The notes under the pieces are model-generated. The model ran no database searches and was not told the DNA's origin. It saw only the letters and a program-made list of their open reading frames with translations. Made by a program: the position numbers and the translations under genes. 64,000 bases of DNA from a virus, in IMG/VR virus record IMGVR_UViG_3300019888_000003, positions 1 to 64,000 of that record, one strand, 5' to 3'. Below, in pieces: positions 16,899 through 26,767 of the stretch; within the stretch, counting starts at the first letter, position 1; each line of letters starts with the position of its first letter.

Positions 16899-17618
16899 GT
16901 GTCAAGTTTAAAGTACATCGGTAAGGCCATCGACGTTGCTGCTGCTCTGTCGACGAAGTCCTACGTGGATTCCGTGCAAGCGACGTCGTTGTCGCAAGCG
17001 GCAGTGGACACTTCGGTCAATTCGCAGTTCGCCTCCTACGCGGTCAAGACCTATGTCGACTCTCAGGATGCGCTCAACGCTCTGACGAGTTACGTGGACA
17101 GCCAGGACAATCTTCGACTCAAGCTTGCGCAGAAGAACGTGGCGAACGGAGTTCCGGGGCTCGACGCGAACGGCAAAGTGTTGGCCAGCAAGCTCAACGT
17201 CGCGGTCACGCAGCGCAACAATCGAATGTTCTGGAGTCCCTCGTCCTACCCCGGTTCGAACATCGATGTTTTCAGCGGAACGACAGTCCTCTACACCTGT
17301 GCGGTCAGTGACCCAGGCTATTCGTACAAGATGCTGTGTTTCGCCAGTCACGAGGTGCACTCCGCCGATATTTCCACCTATCCCATTGTCGAGGTTCGGG
17401 TTGGCAGCTCCGGTGGACAATTGATTGCGCAGGGGTGGGGGCCAGCCGATGCGACTTACTGGACCGGTGTGAGCGTCGAACCGTTTGCCGTGAACACTCA
17501 GACGATCAAGACTGGCGCAACGACGCTCTATGTGACGCTGCATCAAGGCGGGAGCAATGGTCAGGTGACTGTCTCGACATACAAGCCGTATTTCTACGTG
17601 ATGGCCATACCTAGCTAG
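16899..17618 (+). CDS. tail fibre/minor tail protein, SLKY family member 1
   Basis: A 239-residue protein starting SSLKYIGKA, followed by a helical region with repeated YVDxQD motifs (residues about 50-72), a GVPGLDANGKV hinge and a beta-rich C-terminal domain. Two neighbours at 18311 and 19052 share the N-terminal half but have different C-termini, suggesting a common attachment stalk with variable receptor-binding heads. GTG start six bases after the stop of the giant fibre gene. Confidence 0.82.
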   Translation: MSSLKYIGKAIDVAAALSTKSYVDSVQATSLSQAAVDTSVNSQFASYAVKTYVDSQDALNALTSYVDSQDNLRLKLAQKNVANGVPGLDANGKVLASKLNVAVTQRNNRMFWSPSSYPGSNIDVFSGTTVLYTCAVSDPGYSYKMLCFASHEVHSADISTYPIVEVRVGSSGGQLIAQGWGPADATYWTGVSVEPFAVNTQTIKTGATTLYVTLHQGGSNGQVTVSTYKPYFYVMAIPS

Positions 17619-17628
17619 GGAGGAAGAT

Positions 17629-18219
17629 TTAAATATGTGTCCAGGTCTTTCTCTTGATCACGTTGTGAATGCATTGGTAGCTGACATCGAATGTTCGGCC
17701 AAGTTCGGCCTGAGTGATTCCTCCGGCGCTGTAGATGCGACGGATTTCGAGCACGTTCTCTTCGGTGAGCCTGGCATGAGGGTGGTCGATCCCTTTGCAC
17801 ATCAAACCGCGTTCGGTGGCCTCGGCGATATTTTCTCGGTGAGTCCCAAGGTGGAGGCATCGAGGGTGAACGCAGATTGGCCTATCACAGTGATGAAGAA
17901 TGTAAAGACCTTGAGGGATGGGGCCGTGGTAAATGCGGTAAGAGGCTCTGATTGCTGTAACTACATGGTTTTCTGCCCAAAAATGTCCATATCCTTTGTC
18001 ATTCGTTCCTCTTGTCCAGTCCCAGCATCCGTTTTCGGGGGGTTCACCGGGCATGAACCAAGCGAATGCTTCAGCCTCGGTCAGTCCCGAAGGTGCACGA
18101 AGTGTACCGGGGTTCATCGGGTCACCTCGGTAGTACCAGCGCTGATAGTGCATACCGCACCAGCTTCGGGCAAGGACCGGCTTGAGGCAATTTGGGATGG
18201 AGCACGTAGAATCAGTCAT
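17629..18219 (-). CDS. HNH homing endonuclease, antisense
   Basis: A 196-residue HNH protein read leftward inside the rightward tail cluster. The N-terminus has a zinc-knuckle-like CSIPNC and CGMHYQRW. The HNH core runs GCWDWTRG, GYGHFW, LHHCDRPICVHPRCLHLGTHREN. A C-terminal helix-turn-helix (TQAELGRTFDVSYQCIHNVIK) reads DNA. ATG 18219 is chosen because AGGTGAG precedes it on the minus strand, although the frame is open to 18408. Left of its stop there is an orphan GGGAGGA followed by TTTAAATATG, resembling the start region of the SLKY genes. It is a paralogue of the gene at 19845. Confidence 0.85.
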   Translation of the reverse strand: MTDSTCSIPNCLKPVLARSWCGMHYQRWYYRGDPMNPGTLRAPSGLTEAEAFAWFMPGEPPENGCWDWTRGTNDKGYGHFWAENHVVTAIRASYRIYHGPIPQGLYILHHCDRPICVHPRCLHLGTHRENIAEATERGLMCKGIDHPHARLTEENVLEIRRIYSAGGITQAELGRTFDVSYQCIHNVIKRKTWTHI

Positions 18220-18310
18220 ATCGACACTCACCTGTCGGTCGTGCCCCGGCCTGTTTCCGCAGGTGCGGGGCGTTCTACTCCCATAGTAGTCGTGAGAGGA
18301 GGGGTGAACC

Positions 18311-19045
18311 TTGTCCTCACTTAAGTACAAGGGGAGGCCAGCTGATACCGACTTCTCTATCCCCAGCAAGCAATTCGTAGACGACCGATTCGCCACGATC
18401 GGGGTCAACCAGGCCTATGTCGATGCTGCCGTGGCGGCGCAGACCGGAGTTCTCGCTCTCAAGACCTATGTGGACACTCAGGATGCCACCAAGGCTAGGA
18501 AAACTACGGTGGACACGGCGGACACCGGGTACATCCTGGCGACCGCACGCGGGGCCGCAAGCGGCATAGCATCCCTCGGCGCGGACAATCTGGTCCCGGC
18601 TGGGCAGGTGCCAACGTCTATACCCGACCGCTCCATAGTCGTTGTTCCTACCGGAACGCAATATCTCAGCGGTACGCAGGGAGTGTCCAGCACGACAGTG
18701 AAGACCTATCGCGCGGCCAGTCTGACCATTACTGATCCCGGTTGGCCGTATGTGATGTTCTCGTTCGCCACGGTGCGGGGGTTCGCTTCGGCGGCAGGCA
18801 ATTGGGGTCAGGGTGTCATTCTCGACCCCTCGAACAACGGCTGGACGGGTGTAGGCGTTACCGGGGACAACACCAATATTCAGAGTTATCAGATCATGCC
18901 GTACGCAGCGGCTTCACAGGCGGCTTATGGATTGAGTGGCGGGAGGACACTGGAGTTGTGGCTTTCGCTGTACTCCGGGAGTGGAACCTTTTATTTCCAG
19001 AGCACAGGTTTCGTCTTTTATGCGCTACTACTGCCATCGCTGTAA
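18311..19045 (+). CDS. tail fibre/minor tail protein, SLKY family member 2
   Basis: A 244-residue paralogue of the proteins at 16899 and 19052. It has the SSLKYKGRPADT opening, a YVDAAVAAQT and KTYVDTQD helical stalk, and an IASLGADNLVPAGQVP hinge, then its own C-terminal beta domain. The start appears to be TTG 18311 after GAGAGGAGGGG. The antisense HNH gene separates it from its upstream paralogue. Confidence 0.8.
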   Translation: MSSLKYKGRPADTDFSIPSKQFVDDRFATIGVNQAYVDAAVAAQTGVLALKTYVDTQDATKARKTTVDTADTGYILATARGAASGIASLGADNLVPAGQVPTSIPDRSIVVVPTGTQYLSGTQGVSSTTVKTYRAASLTITDPGWPYVMFSFATVRGFASAAGNWGQGVILDPSNNGWTGVGVTGDNTNIQSYQIMPYAAASQAAYGLSGGRTLELWLSLYSGSGTFYFQSTGFVFYALLLPSL

Positions 19046-19051
19046 GGGGAG

Positions 19052-19798
19052 GTGAGTAAGACGGGGAGTTTAAAATACGTCGGCAAGGCTCCAGCAGCCG
19101 CCAAAGACATGACCAATCGTCTAGCTATCGACGCGGCGTTCGCAGGAGGAACTCAGCGTTCCTATGTCGACAACAAAGTGGCAACCGTGGTGTCGACACT
19201 GTCGCGCAAGGATTACGTGGACGGACAGGACAACGCTTATGCCACCACTGCCTACTATCAGGCCGGGGATGCGCTGCTGATCCCGAATGCGCAGAAGGCA
19301 GCCGTCAACGGTGTCGCCAGTCTCGACTCCGGTTCCAAGATTCCCATTGCGCAGATTCCCGCATTCGGGGCGGGGAACATTCAGGGTCCGTACGGTACGA
19401 CCTCTCGCACGACAGGCACAGCGAACCAGGGAAGTTCCTTCACCATCGCGAACTGGACTCTCGCAGCTCCCGGATTCTCCTGGCGACCGCTCGTCTTCGC
19501 CTCGGTGATCATCAGTGGGGCGGGTTCGACCAGGCCCTGTCTCGAAGCACGACTCAGCGGTACCCTCATCGGGTTCGGCTGGGGTAATGCCTACAACGGA
19601 TACCAGGCGGTCTCGCTTCACCCAGCCCCGGATATCACATCTCAGTCGGGCAATCCTCCGACTTCGTATTCGGGGGCCAGTACCCCGAGTATCTCGTTGA
19701 ACATCGTGGAACCGTTCAACAATTCGGGGATGTCGGTGACCTTCGGCGCTACCGGGTACCTGGTGACGGCGGTGGTGTATCTCGTGAAGATCGGTTGA
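19052..19798 (+). CDS. tail fibre/minor tail protein, SLKY family member 3
   Basis: A 248-residue third member of the family: GSLKYVGKAPAA, SYVDNKVA, DYVDGQDNAYA, GVASLDSGSKIPIAQIP, then a distinct C-terminal domain rich in Gly, Ser and aromatic residues. GTG 19052 start with AAGGGGAGG upstream. Likely a receptor-binding or baseplate accessory protein. Confidence 0.8.
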   Translation: MSKTGSLKYVGKAPAAAKDMTNRLAIDAAFAGGTQRSYVDNKVATVVSTLSRKDYVDGQDNAYATTAYYQAGDALLIPNAQKAAVNGVASLDSGSKIPIAQIPAFGAGNIQGPYGTTSRTTGTANQGSSFTIANWTLAAPGFSWRPLVFASVIISGAGSTRPCLEARLSGTLIGFGWGNAYNGYQAVSLHPAPDITSQSGNPPTSYSGASTPSISLNIVEPFNNSGMSVTFGATGYLVTAVVYLVKIG

Positions 19799-19803
19799 TG
19801 AAA

Positions 19804-19844
19804 AGGCTGAGGAGCTGAGAAATAAAATGGGTATCATTACGGAG
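19804..19844 (+). other. displaced copy of the endolysin start region
   Basis: A good ribosome site (GAGGAG) is followed by ATG 19827 and the codons for MGIITE, closely matching the true endolysin start at 20480 (MGIVTE). The reading frame then runs into sequence antisense to the HNH gene. This looks like the original or duplicated initiation region left behind by the HNH insertion. Confidence 0.5.
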
Positions 19845-20453
19845 TCAATTGAGGTGACTCCATCTTCTACTGCTGGCTGCGTCGTAACACGTCCACTTGT
19901 TGATCCCAAGTTCCTCGGCGATCTTTTTCACGGTTTCTCCGGCCTCTTTACGAGCACGTATCTGGAGGACGATGGATTCTGTCAAGACAGACCCTCCGTG
20001 ACGTTCACCTATAGCGGATCGCTGATGTTCGACCATGTCTCTGGAGTTGTCGGCTTCGTAACCGATGTCCAGATGTTCTGGGTTGCAGCACGGTGGGTTG
20101 TCGCATACACGATGGCGAACCAACATCCCCTCGGGGATCTCTGCTTCGTGATGAAGCTCCCAAGCCATACGGTGAGCGATGATCCGTTGTCTTCGGTAAC
20201 TGAAGAATCCGTATCCCTCGGATTGGGAGCCAGTCCAGAGCCAACATTCGTTGGGGGCACCTACTCGAACCCGACTCCAGAATCTTTCTTCACGAGTCAT
20301 GGTGGTCGGAACATATGCCGGGGGTCTTGGAACCTCAGGCTTTCCGTCTCGGAGCCATCTCTGATAGCAGGAACGACACATGCCGTTAACGATGGTGGTG
20401 TCTCTCCGATTGCATTCGAAGATGACGCAGGAAACAGGATCGGACAGAATCAC
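19845..20453 (-). CDS. HNH homing endonuclease, antisense
   Basis: A 202-residue paralogue of the HNH protein at 17629. It has an N-terminal zinc-knuckle pattern (CVIFEC and CRSCYQRW) and a core with ECWLWTG, GYGFFSY, AHRMAW, RHRVCDNPPCCNPEHLDIG. A C-terminal helix-turn-helix contains VKKIAEELGINKWT. The GTG start at 20453 has no obvious ribosome site, so a downstream start is possible. It lies antisense between two copies of the endolysin 5' end, as expected for an insertion at codon five or six of that gene. Confidence 0.85.
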   Translation of the reverse strand: MILSDPVSCVIFECNRRDTTIVNGMCRSCYQRWLRDGKPEVPRPPAYVPTTMTREERFWSRVRVGAPNECWLWTGSQSEGYGFFSYRRQRIIAHRMAWELHHEAEIPEGMLVRHRVCDNPPCCNPEHLDIGYEADNSRDMVEHQRSAIGERHGGSVLTESIVLQIRARKEAGETVKKIAEELGINKWTCYDAASSRRWSHLN

Positions 20454-20479
20454 AAACTACATTGTATAGGACAACCCCA

Positions 20480-21988
20480 ATGGGTATCGTGACGGAAAAT
20501 GGATGGCCTCAAGTTGATGCCGATCAGCTTGACAGGGGTTTGATTCCTGGGACTACCGCTGTCTGTGAAACTCTCGAAGGAGATGTCAACACAATCCTTA
20601 AGGGGTTCGCAGCCTGGTATCACAGGAACGTGGCACCGATAGATATCGGTCCAAGAGATGAGTGGAGCTGGAGTCGGACGAACGATGTCTGGAACTCCAA
20701 CCACCTCTCCGGCACCGCGATGGACATCAATTCCAGCCAGTGGCCCTGGCAGGAATACACCATGCCGCAGTGGATGATCGACAAGATTCGCGTCGGACTG
20801 GGACTGTTCGAGGGCACGGTTTTCTGGGGTCGGGACTGGGACCGTCCCGACGAGATGCACTTCCAGATTCAGGGCAACGCGGAACAGATTGCTCCGTTCG
20901 CCGCGAAGCTACAGGGTGGTTACCTCAACATCTGGGCGGCACCGGACCCCAACGACTTTCCGCTACCGCTCGGTTATTACTACGGACCGCAGGACGGTCC
21001 CGACGAGTCCGTCTCGGGTGAGTGGAGCGGCGATTCGCAAGCGGCCAAGGACGGCTTGGGTCGCTGGCAGGAGGCTCTCGGTCTTCCGGTCACGAAGAAG
21101 TGGAACGACGGTGCCACCTCGAAGGCCGCGACCCTGCTTCAGCTCGACAAGGGCTGGGCACCGCACGGTCACGTCGGATCGTGGGAATGGGACGCCGTCA
21201 TCAAGGACGGTTGGCGACTCAAGGCCCCGCTCTCCGTCATCTCGGACCCCGAGCCGGTCGTGGTCAAGTGGGGCGACTACAGCCAGTATCAGGACGCCTT
21301 CCTGGACGACTCCTACCCCTATCCGGTCATCGCCTTCCGGCTGTCCATCGGTGACACTGTGGATGAGCACGCCGTCGAACAGATGCAGAAGGCGCGCGAT
21401 GCCGTAGCGAGCGGGAAGCTCCAGAAGGTCATCGGCTATCACTTCTTCGTTCCGGGAGTCGACAACCTCGGCACGTTCACCGGGGTCATCACGCAAACAG
21501 GTGGGGTGTTCGCCGAATTGTGCGCGATGGTCGACGTCGAGGACGGCGGGGCCAAGTGGGGTATCTCCGGCGATCAGAGCGCGGAGGTCAACGAGCTGAT
21601 CTCGAAGATCAACGATTATTTCAAGAATCCACAGGCCACAGCGGGGTATCTCAACTTCAACTCCAACGCGGAGTTGTGGCAAACAAGGCCCAACGGCATC
21701 AAGCTCGTCGTTCCTGCCTACAACGGGGCCGACAACGAGCCCTACAGCCCGGACCCACTCTTCGTGCACCAATACACCGACTCCGAGGACACTCCGCCGT
21801 TCGGTCCTACCGACATGAACATCTCCAAGATGCCGCTGCACTCGTGGTTGTCGGCCTGGGGTGTCAACGAGGGAGCGCCGAGCCTGGCTCCGCGCGCCTC
21901 GGAAGCGGTGATACCCCCAGCGGTGATATCTTCGGTGTCCGTCACTGAAGACGACTTGGTTGATCTCATCGCGAGGCAATTCGATGCC
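20480..21988 (+). CDS. lysA: endolysin: M15 peptidase + PG-binding + GH25 lysozyme
   Basis: A modular lysin of about 500 residues. Residues 1-130 are an M15 metallopeptidase with zinc ligands H75 and D82 (HLSGTAMD) and H127 (EMHFQI), cutting peptide cross-bridges. Residues about 175-245 look like a peptidoglycan-binding domain. Residues about 255-475 resemble a GH25 muramidase, with GDYSQYQ near its start, MVDVEDG, AGYLNF and HQYTD. ATG 20480 is preferred to the upstream TTG 20462. The ribosome site here is poor (AGGA only), in contrast to the displaced copy at 19827. The frame stops at 21989-21991 and overlaps the next gene. Confidence 0.88.
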
Positions 21989-23354
21989 TAAGATCAGAAA
22001 CCTGAACCCTCTACCCGAGCTTCCCCGACCAATCGGTGGAACGGATCTTGCCATTCCCTTTCGGGCGTTCGGTGTCGTGGGGCTGTGCTACGGCGACAGC
22101 TTCGGAAAGAACGGCAACTCTCTCGTTCCTCAAGTGGGAGGCGATGATTGGCGCTCTCCGATTATCGTATGGACAGAGTCTTCGTCCGATCTCGGCAAGC
22201 CCATTGTCGTCACTGGTGCCGTGAGAGATGGCGCGCAGCTCTGGGATTATCCCCACGACAATGATCAATTCAGTACGGTGCTCCCTACCGATGTGATCGA
22301 GATCGACGGGTCGCTCTACATCTGGGTCATGGTCACCAAGGGACTTGGCCACGAGCAATGGTGTGAGCTGGCGCGCTCCGATGATCATGGGATCACTTGG
22401 AACAACAAAGGCATACGGTGGTCGACGTCGGATTTCGGCTCCAAGCGCGTCATGGTCACCTTCGACCGCAAGCCCGGTTCGAACATCGTGGACATCTTTT
22501 CTACGGGTGGACTCGCGAGGGACAAGGGGATGCTTCGGTGGCGTTGTCACAAGGATTCCCTCCAGGACCCCGCCGCGTGGGATGGGTGGGGTTGGGATGG
22601 TCAGACCTGGGATTGGGGTCGTCCCCCGAGCGAGATTCTGCCGGGGTGGAAGTTCGGCGAGATCGGTTTCCGCTGGATTCAAGGCAATGCTGTGCTCTCG
22701 GGGTTCGATGCCGGTAACTATTCGATTTTCGTCAAGGTCGGCGAGAGCACCGATGTCAATTGGACCAAGATCACGACATACCGTCCCATCACTGGTCTTC
22801 CGCGTGGTGTCGATACGGTGTCCCGGCTCTACGGTGGATATGTACACCCGAACTCGAAGTTCGACGGCACATTCGCGGTGATCGTCTCGGAATGGGCTTC
22901 CTCTGGTAACCCATACCGAGCCATGCAGTTTCAGGTCTTCGGCATCAAGGCCGCAGGTCCGATTGTGGAGGACATACCAAGCGTGAGTGTCGACTCGGCT
23001 GCACTATCGAACGAAGGAATTGACATGTCCGCAGAAGAAGCCCTACAGAAGATCGCTCAAGAGCTGTCGGCGTCGGGGGACGTCAAGCTCACTTTGGCAA
23101 ATGGGCGCAACGTATCTCTCCGTCAAGCGTTGGCAGAGATCCTATGGAAGTGCAACGCCCGATTGGCCGTATCTGGTGACGTCAATATCAAGCGTCCGGT
23201 GGCCGCGACCGAAGGTGATGATCAGTTCGGTCATGTGTTGTCTGCGCGCGGAGAACTGAATATCTTGATTGCGTTGCAACGCAAAGCATCCGAGCTGGGT
23301 CGACTTCTCACCGTCGCTGAACACGACGCCGTCGTCACGGCGATGACGAAATGA
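21984..23354 (+). CDS. DUF4185 protein, putative D-arabinan hydrolase (lysis/host wall)
   Basis: A 456-residue protein. Residues about 20-340 match DUF4185, a five-bladed propeller glycosidase-like domain: GLCYGDSF, DDWRSPIIVW, VLPTDVIEIDGSLYIWVM, ARSDDHGITW. Members of this family have been shown to be endo-D-arabinanases acting on mycobacterial arabinogalactan, so cutting the host wall polymer is the likely role. The C-terminal 110 residues are helical and preceded by their own ribosome site and ATG. It sits between endolysin and holin, with ATGA-type overlaps on both sides. Confidence 0.8.
   Translation: MPKIRNLNPLPELPRPIGGTDLAIPFRAFGVVGLCYGDSFGKNGNSLVPQVGGDDWRSPIIVWTESSSDLGKPIVVTGAVRDGAQLWDYPHDNDQFSTVLPTDVIEIDGSLYIWVMVTKGLGHEQWCELARSDDHGITWNNKGIRWSTSDFGSKRVMVTFDRKPGSNIVDIFSTGGLARDKGMLRWRCHKDSLQDPAAWDGWGWDGQTWDWGRPPSEILPGWKFGEIGFRWIQGNAVLSGFDAGNYSIFVKVGESTDVNWTKITTYRPITGLPRGVDTVSRLYGGYVHPNSKFDGTFAVIVSEWASSGNPYRAMQFQVFGIKAAGPIVEDIPSVSVDSAALSNEGIDMSAEEALQKIAQELSASGDVKLTLANGRNVSLRQALAEILWKCNARLAVSGDVNIKRPVAATEGDDQFGHVLSARGELNILIALQRKASELGRLLTVAEHDAVVTAMTK
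23025..23354 (+). CDS. possible internal translation product of the DUF4185 gene
   Basis: Inside the DUF4185 gene, GAAGGA (23013-23018) lies six bases before the in-frame ATG 23025. This would yield a separate 109-residue helical protein identical to the C-terminal domain. Several Gram-positive phage lysins make extra copies of their wall-binding domain in this way. No direct proof is visible in the sequence. Confidence 0.35.
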   Translation: MSAEEALQKIAQELSASGDVKLTLANGRNVSLRQALAEILWKCNARLAVSGDVNIKRPVAATEGDDQFGHVLSARGELNILIALQRKASELGRLLTVAEHDAVVTAMTK

Positions 23355-23899: not shown

Positions 23900-26767
23900 A
23901 TGCGTGCCAATGGCCAGAAGGATCTGCTGACTGACCTGAAATTCGACCCTGTGCAGGCGTTTCGGAGTGGTTTGGACCCGAAACCCCAGTGGGATTCGAT
24001 CATTGAGTTCGCTACGCACCGATCTTTCTGTGGTCTGCGGCTCTATCCCCGGCAGATCACGCTGCTGCGTCTGATTTACCTCGAAACCGAGACGATGACG
24101 GCCTACGACCTCGACGTGATCGAGCAATGGCGAGAGGGTTTCCTGAATCACGACTCTCCCGAGGGCGTGCAGACCGACATCTGGGACCGGATTCAGTACC
24201 TCAAGGAGCGCGGATACCGGCATTTCCCGCATATCGAGGCGATTATCGGGCGACGTGGGTCCAAGGGCAAGATCGGGGGCGTTCTCGGTGCTGAAAAGAT
24301 GGCATATCTCTACAGTCTGGACGATTGGCAGAGCCATTACGGAGTGAGCCCCGGCAAGGACGGTTTCCTGTCGGTGGTGGCGGTCAACTCCATCCAGGCC
24401 AAGAAGTTTCAGTTCGCGGATATTCGCGAAACGGTCGAGAACTGCAAATATCTTCAGTCCGCCATTGCCACATCGAACGGCTACGAGGTGGCCTTGCGCA
24501 CGCCTGCTGATCTGAGGCGAATCGCGTACTTGCACAAGAACAAAATCCCTATCGAGCACCAAATTGCTTCGCTGCACGCGACGGCGATGTCGTCGAACTC
24601 CGCCTCCGGTCGTGGTGCGACGGGATTTGCGAACATCTACGACGAGTTCGCCCACATGATCACCAACACCGGAAGCCAGCGGTCGAGCGAGGAAATCTAC
24701 GAGGCCTATCAGCCCTCCCTCGACCAGTTCGGCAAGGACTCGCTGACTTACATCCCTTCTTCGCCCTTCTGTCTCAGTCCGGAAACTCCGGTGCTTACCG
24801 ACGATCTGCGCTGGGTACCAGTTGGATCGTTGCAGGTGGGAGACAAGCTGGTCGGCTTCGACGAAGACGCACCAAGCCGAGGTGTAGGCCGACGATGGCA
24901 GCAGGCAGAGGTCACCGAAACCTCGGTGATTCGCGCACCCCGCTACACGATCACGATGTCGAGCGGGCGGCAGATCACCTCGACCAGCGAGCATCGCTGG
25001 CTTACGTCGTGGGCATCGCAGAAGTCGCGCTGGGATTGGCGTAAGACCTCCGAGCTAAAGCCAGGCGACCGCATCAAGTCGATTGGTGTCGATCCGTGGG
25101 GCACCGACAACACCCGAGAGGGCGGCTACCTCGCTGGCATTTTCGACGGCGAGGGGCACCTGTCCGGTCAGGTCGGACGCAACATGACGCTGGGCTTCAC
25201 GCAGAATCGCGGACCAGTGCGAGAGCGCGTCTACGACCTGTTAACCGAGCGCGGCTACAAGGTGCAGGACTACACAGGCGAGTCGTCGCGCATCAGCAAA
25301 ATGCGAATCGGCGGCTCCGTAGGCGACGTGATGCGCTTCCTCGGCTCGGTTCGCCCCGAGCGTTTGCTGCCGAAGTTCGGCGACATGTTCTATGGCTCGC
25401 GCATCTACGGACCAGCCAGTCAGGCAGTCGAGACTGTGGTTTCCGTCGAATACAAGGACGAGGGCGACGTGATTGCACTCGGTACCTCGACGGCCACTCT
25501 GGTAGCCGATGGCTTGCTCAGCCATAACACTCAGGTCGGACATTTCTTTTCCCTCTACAAGGAGGGGAAGGTGCTGATGAGCACCTTCGACAAGGAGACC
25601 GGAGAGACGCGGCTGGAGGAGAAGACCGCCAGGGAGCTAGGGCACAGTGACGGGGATGCGGAGCGCAAGGTCGTTGAACTTGCTGCCAACCCCGAGATGC
25701 TGGTTGTTCAGTTGCCGAGTTGGGGGCTCTACGAGGATTGGCGCAAGTCGCCCACACTTGGTGGGCCTCTGTTCAAGCGCCCCATTCAGGCCTACGACGA
25801 GCGCATGATGCGGCTTGAGCGCAGCAACCCGCAGAAGTTCAACGTCGAGCGTCGCAGTCAGTTCGCTTCCGTGGTCGATGCGTTCATGGACCCGCGCAAG
25901 GTCGAGGCGATGTTCGATCCGGTGCCCTGGCGAGAGAAGCTGGTTCCCCAAGATCGCGGACGTGTCGACCGTCGCTACTACGTTCACATCGACCCTGGTC
26001 TCACCAACGCCAACTTCGCGCTGGCCATCGCTCACTTGGAGTACGCGCCCGTCGACGATTACGGCGACGTGTGGCCACACGTCATTATCGACTTCCTCAA
26101 AGTGTGGAAGCCTGGGGACTACGAGGACCACACCATCGACTACGTTCAGGTGCAGCGCGAGGTCGCTGCGACTCTGCGTAAGTTCCCCTCCACTCACATT
26201 TTCTCCGCAGACCAGTGGAACAGCGCCGGAATGCTGGCGGCGCTACGCGAGGAGTTCGGTGCGTCTATCCAGATCAAGGAAGAGACGTTCACCGACATCT
26301 ACAACCAGGAGCGCATGGACCGCATGAAGTCGGCCATCAACCTGGGTTGGGTGCACAGCTACCGCGACAACTTCTACGGTGACGGTGATTGCCTGTTGGA
26401 GTTGGAAATGAAGTTTCTTCAGAAAAAGGGCAAGAAGGTCGACAAGCAAGAGTTCGGGCCTGTGACGACCAAAGACCTCTTCGACGCGGTGAACGTCGTA
26501 ACAGATCGAATGCTCAAGGACGACTTGGACCGCTGGCAGGCGAAGATGCTGGGCACTGTATCGACGGCCATCGGCAGTTCCAACGTCGCCGGGATTCGCA
26601 GTGGGCGGGATCTGGATCGGCTCAATGCACTCAAGTCCGGGGCTCGAAGACTGCAAGGTCCTATGACTGCTCGGGAGAAGCTGCGTGAACAGACTCGGCA
26701 GCGCTCCACCACACACGGCATCGGCGTAGGAGGGGGCACGTCGCGCCTGCGGGGGATCAGGGGGTAG
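23900..26767 (+). CDS. terL: terminase large subunit with intein
   Basis: A 955-codon gene. The extein (702 residues) is a packaging ATPase-nuclease. GRRGSKGKIGG (117-127) is the Walker A-like motif, NIYDEFAHM (about 244-252) is Walker B, and SSP around 286 is the coupling motif. The nuclease Asp residues lie in YVHIDPGLTN, IFSADQWNSAG and KDLFDAVNVV. An intein interrupts it at residues 291-543, within the ATPase core. There is no ribosome site; TAGTCT lies six bases before ATG 23900, suggesting a leaderless transcript. The neighbour upstream is the holin gene. Confidence 0.9.
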   Translation: MRANGQKDLLTDLKFDPVQAFRSGLDPKPQWDSIIEFATHRSFCGLRLYPRQITLLRLIYLETETMTAYDLDVIEQWREGFLNHDSPEGVQTDIWDRIQYLKERGYRHFPHIEAIIGRRGSKGKIGGVLGAEKMAYLYSLDDWQSHYGVSPGKDGFLSVVAVNSIQAKKFQFADIRETVENCKYLQSAIATSNGYEVALRTPADLRRIAYLHKNKIPIEHQIASLHATAMSSNSASGRGATGFANIYDEFAHMITNTGSQRSSEEIYEAYQPSLDQFGKDSLTYIPSSPFCLSPETPVLTDDLRWVPVGSLQVGDKLVGFDEDAPSRGVGRRWQQAEVTETSVIRAPRYTITMSSGRQITSTSEHRWLTSWASQKSRWDWRKTSELKPGDRIKSIGVDPWGTDNTREGGYLAGIFDGEGHLSGQVGRNMTLGFTQNRGPVRERVYDLLTERGYKVQDYTGESSRISKMRIGGSVGDVMRFLGSVRPERLLPKFGDMFYGSRIYGPASQAVETVVSVEYKDEGDVIALGTSTATLVADGLLSHNTQVGHFFSLYKEGKVLMSTFDKETGETRLEEKTARELGHSDGDAERKVVELAANPEMLVVQLPSWGLYEDWRKSPTLGGPLFKRPIQAYDERMMRLERSNPQKFNVERRSQFASVVDAFMDPRKVEAMFDPVPWREKLVPQDRGRVDRRYYVHIDPGLTNANFALAIAHLEYAPVDDYGDVWPHVIIDFLKVWKPGDYEDHTIDYVQVQREVAATLRKFPSTHIFSADQWNSAGMLAALREEFGASIQIKEETFTDIYNQERMDRMKSAINLGWVHSYRDNFYGDGDCLLELEMKFLQKKGKKVDKQEFGPVTTKDLFDAVNVVTDRMLKDDLDRWQAKMLGTVSTAIGSSNVAGIRSGRDLDRLNALKSGARRLQGPMTAREKLREQTRQRSTTHGIGVGGGTSRLRGIRG
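24770..25528 (+). mobile_element. intein with LAGLIDADG endonuclease in terL
   Basis: The 253-residue intein begins at Cys291 (CLSPETPV, block A) and ends with His542-Asn543 before Thr544, the features of a class 1 intein. TSEHRW supplies the block B His. YLAGIFDGEGHLSG is a LAGLIDADG homing motif about 120 residues in. The insertion site is the conserved C-motif of the terminase ATPase. The intein must splice out for packaging to work. Confidence 0.92.

Follow-up and report, generated by a model that had tools for sequence, protein, structure and literature searches.

A 64,000-nucleotide stretch of viral DNA (positions 1 to 64,000 of IMG/VR record IMGVR_UViG_3300019888_000003, itself 78 kb long; hereafter the window) carries an endonuclease gene of the HNH_3 family that lies backwards in the late operon, directly in front of the lysin gene and between two copies of the lysin start. 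Here we describe the anatomy of this locus, empty and filled sites of the same kind in a second phage genus, a class-wide lack of antisense stop codons in backward HNH genes and the placement of the antisense frame's stop on the downstream start. We think it probable that this is a homing insert with a rebuilt gene end that is kept readable from behind, so that ribosomes can pass through, forestall polarity and begin anew on the lysin.

The closest described systems each share part of this design. In fungal mitochondria, mobile open reading frames (mORFs) arrive with a gene end of foreign origin that takes the place of the native one, as in atp6 of Allomyces macrogynus (Paquin et al. 1994) and atp6, atp9, cox2 and nad3 of Glomus (PMC3630166). 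The likeness lies in a free-standing endonuclease reading frame near a gene end, accompanied by a diverged replacing copy, with the native end left as a displaced relic (PMC3630166). We find such a diverged second end with a displaced relic at the gene start in the window, in Gordonia phages of the genus Vividuovirus and in survey locus L288, and at the gene end in loci L050, L097 and L329. The fungal cases concern C-terminal ends (PMC3630166), whereas the first three concern the start, and in these, unlike in the mORFs, the endonuclease is antisense, with the opposite strand open and apparently coupled to the next gene. The ShiLan inserts in mycobacteriophage methylases hide an HNH gene in another frame of a readable insert (PMC11855218); they, too, are actinobacteriophage HNH inserts that are stop-free in the direction of the host gene, without intron or intein (PMC11855218), and in the window an open frame likewise runs through the HNH gene in the host direction. 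In ShiLan, however, the HNH gene is on the host strand and the insert lies within the host protein. Here the HNH gene occupies the other strand; the frame that reads through it forms its own cistron and closes at the new lysin start, in a frame different from that of the lysin, and a rebuilt start makes the host gene complete again. The free-standing endonuclease genes of T4 are co-oriented with their neighbours except segD, among intrinsic terminators (PMC2988022). These are likewise intergenic selfish genes that must fit the expression programme of the host (PMC2988022), but no open antisense frame is described for T4-like phages (PMC2988022), unlike the window inserts. A literature search, with most subscription papers out of reach, found no earlier description of antisense homing genes that are kept open and coupled.

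The lysin locus and its empty and filled counterparts

The window belongs to an actinophage related to Myrnavirus (Myrna, Phabba, ScoobyDoobyDoo), with which it has the order of tail genes, lysin and terminase in common. A closer relative is the 131-kb contig L004, whose lysin is 87% identical to that of the window, compared with 52-55% for the Myrnavirus endolysins. The features of the lysin locus are as follows.

19809-19814, plus strand: GAGGAG, the old lysin ribosome site, read from the sequence
19827..19844, plus strand: left relic of the lysin start (ATG and five codons, MGIITE), read in the same phase as the open antisense frame
19827..20492, plus strand: open exact-antisense frame of 221 codons, the proposed read-through cistron (from the list of open reading frames and the class-wide tests)
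19845..20453, minus strand: HNH_3 endonuclease gene, 202 amino acids, GTG start (PF13392 and relatives), antisense to the late operon
20480..21991, plus strand: lysin with rebuilt start, 503 amino acids (Peptidase_M15_4, 7e-9), opened by the right copy
20480..20660, plus strand: 5' part of the lysin diverged from L004 (63-80% identity against mostly 85-98% later), a possible donor tract, not specific

The endonuclease is assigned to HNH_3 by its match to PF13392 (1.1e-6; 28.6 bits against a curated cut-off of 24.8). It is flanked by ATGGGTATCATTACGGA at 19827-19843 and ATGGGTATCGTGACGGA at 20480-20496, the two copies of the lysin start that an earlier sequence-only reading had pointed out. Both begin exactly on the start codon and encode MGI[I/V]TE, the counterpart of MALITEN in Myrna, Phabba and ScoobyDoobyDoo and of MTIVTEN in L004. 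They agree at 15 of 17 bases, a level reached by 6 of 3,000 random segment pairs of the same window at similar spacing (p ~0.002 for base identity alone). The left copy starts 28 bases 3' of the tail gene's stop codon and ends one base short of the HNH stop codon (TCA on the plus strand) at 19845. Preceded by GAGGAG, it has the better Shine-Dalgarno sequence, as that reading held; the right copy, described there as having a poor site, is not bare and has AGGA within TATAGGACAACCCCAATG.

The reading had missed an open frame on the plus strand (19827-20492), and also a second antisense HNH gene of similar layout, described in the last section. The frame starts at the left ATG, crosses the entire antisense HNH gene and stops ten bases inside the new lysin gene, at TGA 20490-20492. 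Stops in an exact-antisense frame correspond to TTA, CTA and TCA codons of the HNH gene, and there are none among its 24 leucine and serine codons; the other two antisense frames hold 11 and 7 stops. The insert does not resemble a group I intron or intein, as the rebuilt right start leaves no halves to join and the HNH gene is antisense (no Rfam search was made). A scan of 17500-20700 for sigma-70 promoters and intrinsic terminators gave none near the junctions and none above chance. By sequence comparison with the window, L004 has no HNH gene at the lysin site; a donor search for the window's lysin 5' tract gave no good match.

In Gordonia phage Nordenberg, too, an antisense HNH gene stands directly before the endolysin. 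Within Vividuovirus this site is filled in Nordenberg, Vivi2, Tangent and Paries and empty in Ailee, McKinley, Lennon, Kewpiedoll and Thing3, which is the presence and absence at one site among close relatives that characterises homing elements. The five phages without HNH carry an intact lysin start, ATGTCCACGATCATCGACACCGCTGCCGGG, two of them with one synonymous change, and are mutually 95-100% alike across the first 120 nt. The four with HNH keep the original leader, the ATG and nine codons almost base for base, followed by the end of the antisense HNH gene, which thus sits after lysin codon 9, and on the right of the insert they have a rebuilt lysin start, ATGACGACCGTGATCGACACTGCG. In this right copy the recoding spans codons 2-34 (68-77% identity), and the sequence is afterwards 97-100% identical to Ailee; in the recoded tract 25 codons differ from Ailee, 17 of these synonymously. 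In a search for its donor, nothing outside the HNH-bearing phages was closer than ~75%, which is Ailee itself. The antisense frame here has 217 codons and extends from the old ATG to an ATGA overlap with the new ATG. Vivi2 has lost 132 bp of the insert (44 codons, a multiple of three) and retains both frame and overlap.

By analogy, these sites suggest how the doubled start of the window type forms. The sequence-only reading had the HNH element home into lysin codon five or six with regeneration of a start, and it recommended a comparison with HNH-less relatives. In Vividuovirus the empty and filled sites match this idea; for the window, whose HNH-less relative L004 has a different start, the idea is favoured by analogy, and the rebuilt part may far exceed the 17-bp repeat, given the 34 recoded codons in Vividuovirus. 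As a separate observation, RefSeq annotates the endolysin of Tangent at the coupled, likely true ATG, but those of Nordenberg, Vivi2 and Paries from a start 75 nt further downstream; the records with the shifted start are NC_055777 (L400), NC_031239 (L411) and NC_055859 (L416).

Antisense HNH genes across the family

We surveyed 261 distinct HNH genes of the same family as the window gene, from IMG/VR and GTDB loci, calling the neighbouring genes with a codon model. The exact-antisense frame is fully open, with no TTA, CTA or TCA, in 40 of 69 HNH genes that lie antisense between two operon genes, as against 14 of 141 in sense orientation (Fisher p=3e-13; 1.5e-12 if the two window genes are left out). 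The contrast also holds in the second batch by itself, from which the window gene was excluded (11/26 against 6/65, p=6e-4). All three codons are depleted in antisense relative to sense genes: TTA 1.6 vs 10.1%, CTA 5.3 vs 11.7% and TCA 8.1 vs 13.3%, while the shares of A-ending control codons are about equal (0.180 vs 0.192). The contrast persists when stratified by GC content at third codon positions (GC3; Mantel-Haenszel 6.5e-12), and a GC3-adjusted codon model learnt on the sense HNH genes predicts 5.8 open antisense genes where 40 are observed. The other two antisense frames contain ~5 stops per gene in both classes alike. On a tree of 210 surveyed HNH genes there are at least 52 orientation changes, so the open antisense inserts represent many events. 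PHROG matches on the called strand, obtained for part of the loci, show that open inserts have major head, tail and lysis genes as neighbours.

In 22 of the 40 open loci the antisense frame stops at a start codon of the downstream gene, often as an ATGA overlap. The two remaining frames do so in 9/80 cases (p=9e-7, or 6e-6 when the window is left out), and the figure for closed loci is 6/29. Since the hypothesis arose from the first batch, this frame-stop test and the second batch are the cleaner evidence. The frame's start is preceded by a better Shine-Dalgarno-like sequence in open loci than in closed or sense loci, and at several loci it overlaps the stop of the upstream gene. Intrinsic terminators between HNH and the next gene are found at 0/40 open and 5/29 closed loci (p=0.01), as would be expected if openness matters only where transcription continues. 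The stop placement, the Shine-Dalgarno sequences and the terminator pattern all point to translation of the antisense frame. At most loci this frame is a separate cistron with its own stop. In-frame fusion with the upstream gene as a general rule was considered and dropped, as a coding-score test gave only L144 and L292, where a coding-like stretch upstream (162 and 47 codons) continues into the open frame without a frame change and a true fusion is possible. At another locus, L095, the endolysin gene lies between two antisense HNH genes, of which the one before the lysin is open and the one behind it closed, with a terminator.

Doubled gene ends flank antisense HNH genes also in L288, L050, L097 and L329, with scores of 66-89 against shuffle maxima of 33-34. 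In L288 the doubled part is the first 15 codons of the next gene, and in the other three the doubling concerns the final codons of the gene before. The antisense frame of L050 and L097 enters the relic end in frame and uses the relic's stop. Sense inserts yielded no comparable doubled gene end. Target-site duplication as a trait of the whole family was rejected: when the flanking sequences of 144 HNH genes were set against shuffled pairs, only L100, L226 and the window gene exceeded the null.

Proposed mechanism and its alternatives

In the mechanism that we propose, a free-standing HNH homing element would have inserted backwards within the first lysin codons. The nuclease would cut in the terminal codons of a gene, and repair with donor homology on one side only would leave one flank with a relic and the opposite flank with a full copy of diverged base sequence. 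The rebuilt start would probably stem from a donor phage via such one-sided repair of the double-strand break, which would leave a complete lysin. T4 intron acquisition, studied by Parker et al. 1999 (listed in PMC2988022), reportedly involves repair that is homologous on one side and non-homologous on the other. We extend this route from the intron to the present case by inference, with a relic expected on one flank and a donor copy on the opposite one. The diverged copy would keep the protein, and its changed bases should spare it from the nuclease, which is predicted to cut the uninterrupted lysin start.

What would then keep the other strand open? Backward inserts may persist in operons if their mRNA strand is readable, and this strand would be kept stop-free in the sole frame that can be cleared without altering the HNH protein. 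Ribosomes that initiate at the old, strong lysin site would pass over the reversed gene as if it were a dummy cistron, terminate right at the new lysin start and re-initiate there. Translation across the insert would also shield the mRNA from polarity caused by Rho. This factor is active in mycobacteria (PMC5379054), and therefore an untranslated stretch of 600 nt is expected to cause polarity. Either coupling or polarity may be the selective reason for the open frame. The sequence-only reading had suggested that lysin expression may now depend on weaker initiation at the right copy, whereas the evidence favours translational coupling from the old strong site through the open antisense frame.

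Several observations weigh against this mechanism. The antisense frame is not open in 29 of the 69 antisense inserts, and doubled gene ends that exceed the null are few rather than the rule within the family. Outside annotated phages, the orientations depend on a simple codon-model caller with PHROG checks at some of the loci, and just 3 orientation pairs fall on well-supported tree branches, too few for a paired phylogenetic test. In the window itself there is no exact empty-site partner, as the start and leader of the L004 lysin differ, and a conversion tract sought from the L004 comparison had to be dropped, the 5' ends of the tail genes being diverged from L004 too. The probability of an open frame by chance, under the codon usage of the phage's late genes, is 0.39 and 0.46 for the two window frames (0.008 and 0.017 under HNH-type codon usage); not being significant alone under the former, they draw their weight from the class-wide pattern. 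The late-gene values, together with the AGGA at the right copy, suit an ordinary homing insertion with a rebuilt start, in which the frame is open through codon usage and untranslated and the lysin is made from the weaker right site, as the sequence-only reading envisaged. We consider this unlikely, because TTA, CTA and TCA are lacking only in antisense inserts, with control codons equal, and because the frame stops sit at the downstream start.

The long frame with its start and ribosome site could also be an overlapping gene, conserved for a functional protein of its own such as a regulator of the nuclease. It spans, however, very diverse HNH genes, mostly 30-50% identical, with no common product kept, and its stop tracks the downstream start, which is better explained by coupling; we give this reading little credence. 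The chance is similarly small that fusion of host gene and insert was the selective reason, the HNH having landed in frame and the gene reading through in a ShiLan-like manner, with stops and rebuilt ends arising later. Such an origin would fit the reading phase that left relic and antisense frame share in the window and Vividuovirus, the in-frame continuation of the antisense frame into the upstream gene's relic end in L050 and L097, and the fused look of L144 and L292, but the cistron is separate in most loci and the L288 relic is out of frame. Finally, given the simple codon model behind the orientations and the relatedness of the sequences, the pattern might be an artefact of gene calling, composition or shared ancestry. 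The GC3 strata, the control codons, the other frames, the second batch, the PHROG-checked neighbours, the many orientation changes and the same design in annotated Gordonia phages speak against it and make it very improbable.

If the mechanism of a rebuilt, readable insert is correct, an essential late operon can hold a reversed selfish gene in its midst and still be expressed, which would make a testable claim on translation across antisense genes and on polarity in phages. It would also explain some misplaced lysin starts, such as the three RefSeq ones above, and provide a searchable signature for any phage collection: a nuclease gene without TTA, CTA or TCA whose antisense frame stops on the next start. 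The window would, in addition, provide a natural case of a homing element that brings along a rescue copy for its own target, and if so, the counterpart of a recoded-rescue gene drive. That antisense homing genes in phage operons constitute a distinct element type, with both strands under selection, a stop-free dummy cistron and a recoded, cut-resistant gene end, we regard as an evenly balanced question.

The second insert and other features of the late region

Upstream of the lysin locus, the window holds the following.

17629..~18228, minus strand: second antisense HNH gene, flanked by two tail genes; start approximate
17635..18324, plus strand: open exact-antisense frame over the second HNH gene, with its stop inside the start of the next tail gene (TTG 18311)
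19052..19798, plus strand: last tail gene, directly 5' of the lysin locus, 85% DNA identity to L004 over 18290-19798

The second HNH gene reaches 22.5 bits for HNH_3, just under the cut-off of 24.8, and is 30% identical to the first; by sequence comparison with the window it is absent from L004. Its antisense frame starts with GGAGG and an ATG at 17635, directly 3' of the stop of the upstream gene. On the 5' side of this HNH gene (18228-18300) there is a hairpin, CCCCGGCCTGTTTCCGCAGGTGCGGGG, which resembles a terminator hairpin, GCTCCCGGCCTGTTTCCGCAGGCGCGGGAGTTCTTTT, at the same position in L095 and L119. The T-run of the hairpin is lost in the window, where the antisense frame is open, and intact in L095 and L119, where it is closed. 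At the position of the 19052..19798 gene, Myrna and Phabba have an annotated minor tail protein.

On the minus strand at 20454-20475, TATACAAT, identified by eye, precedes the GTG start of the first HNH gene by ~7 nt, as in a leaderless actinobacterial transcript. The large terminase gene (23900-26767) contains an intein-like insert with weak Pfam matches to Intein_splicing and LAGLIDADG_3, which would be the third selfish element of the window's late region.
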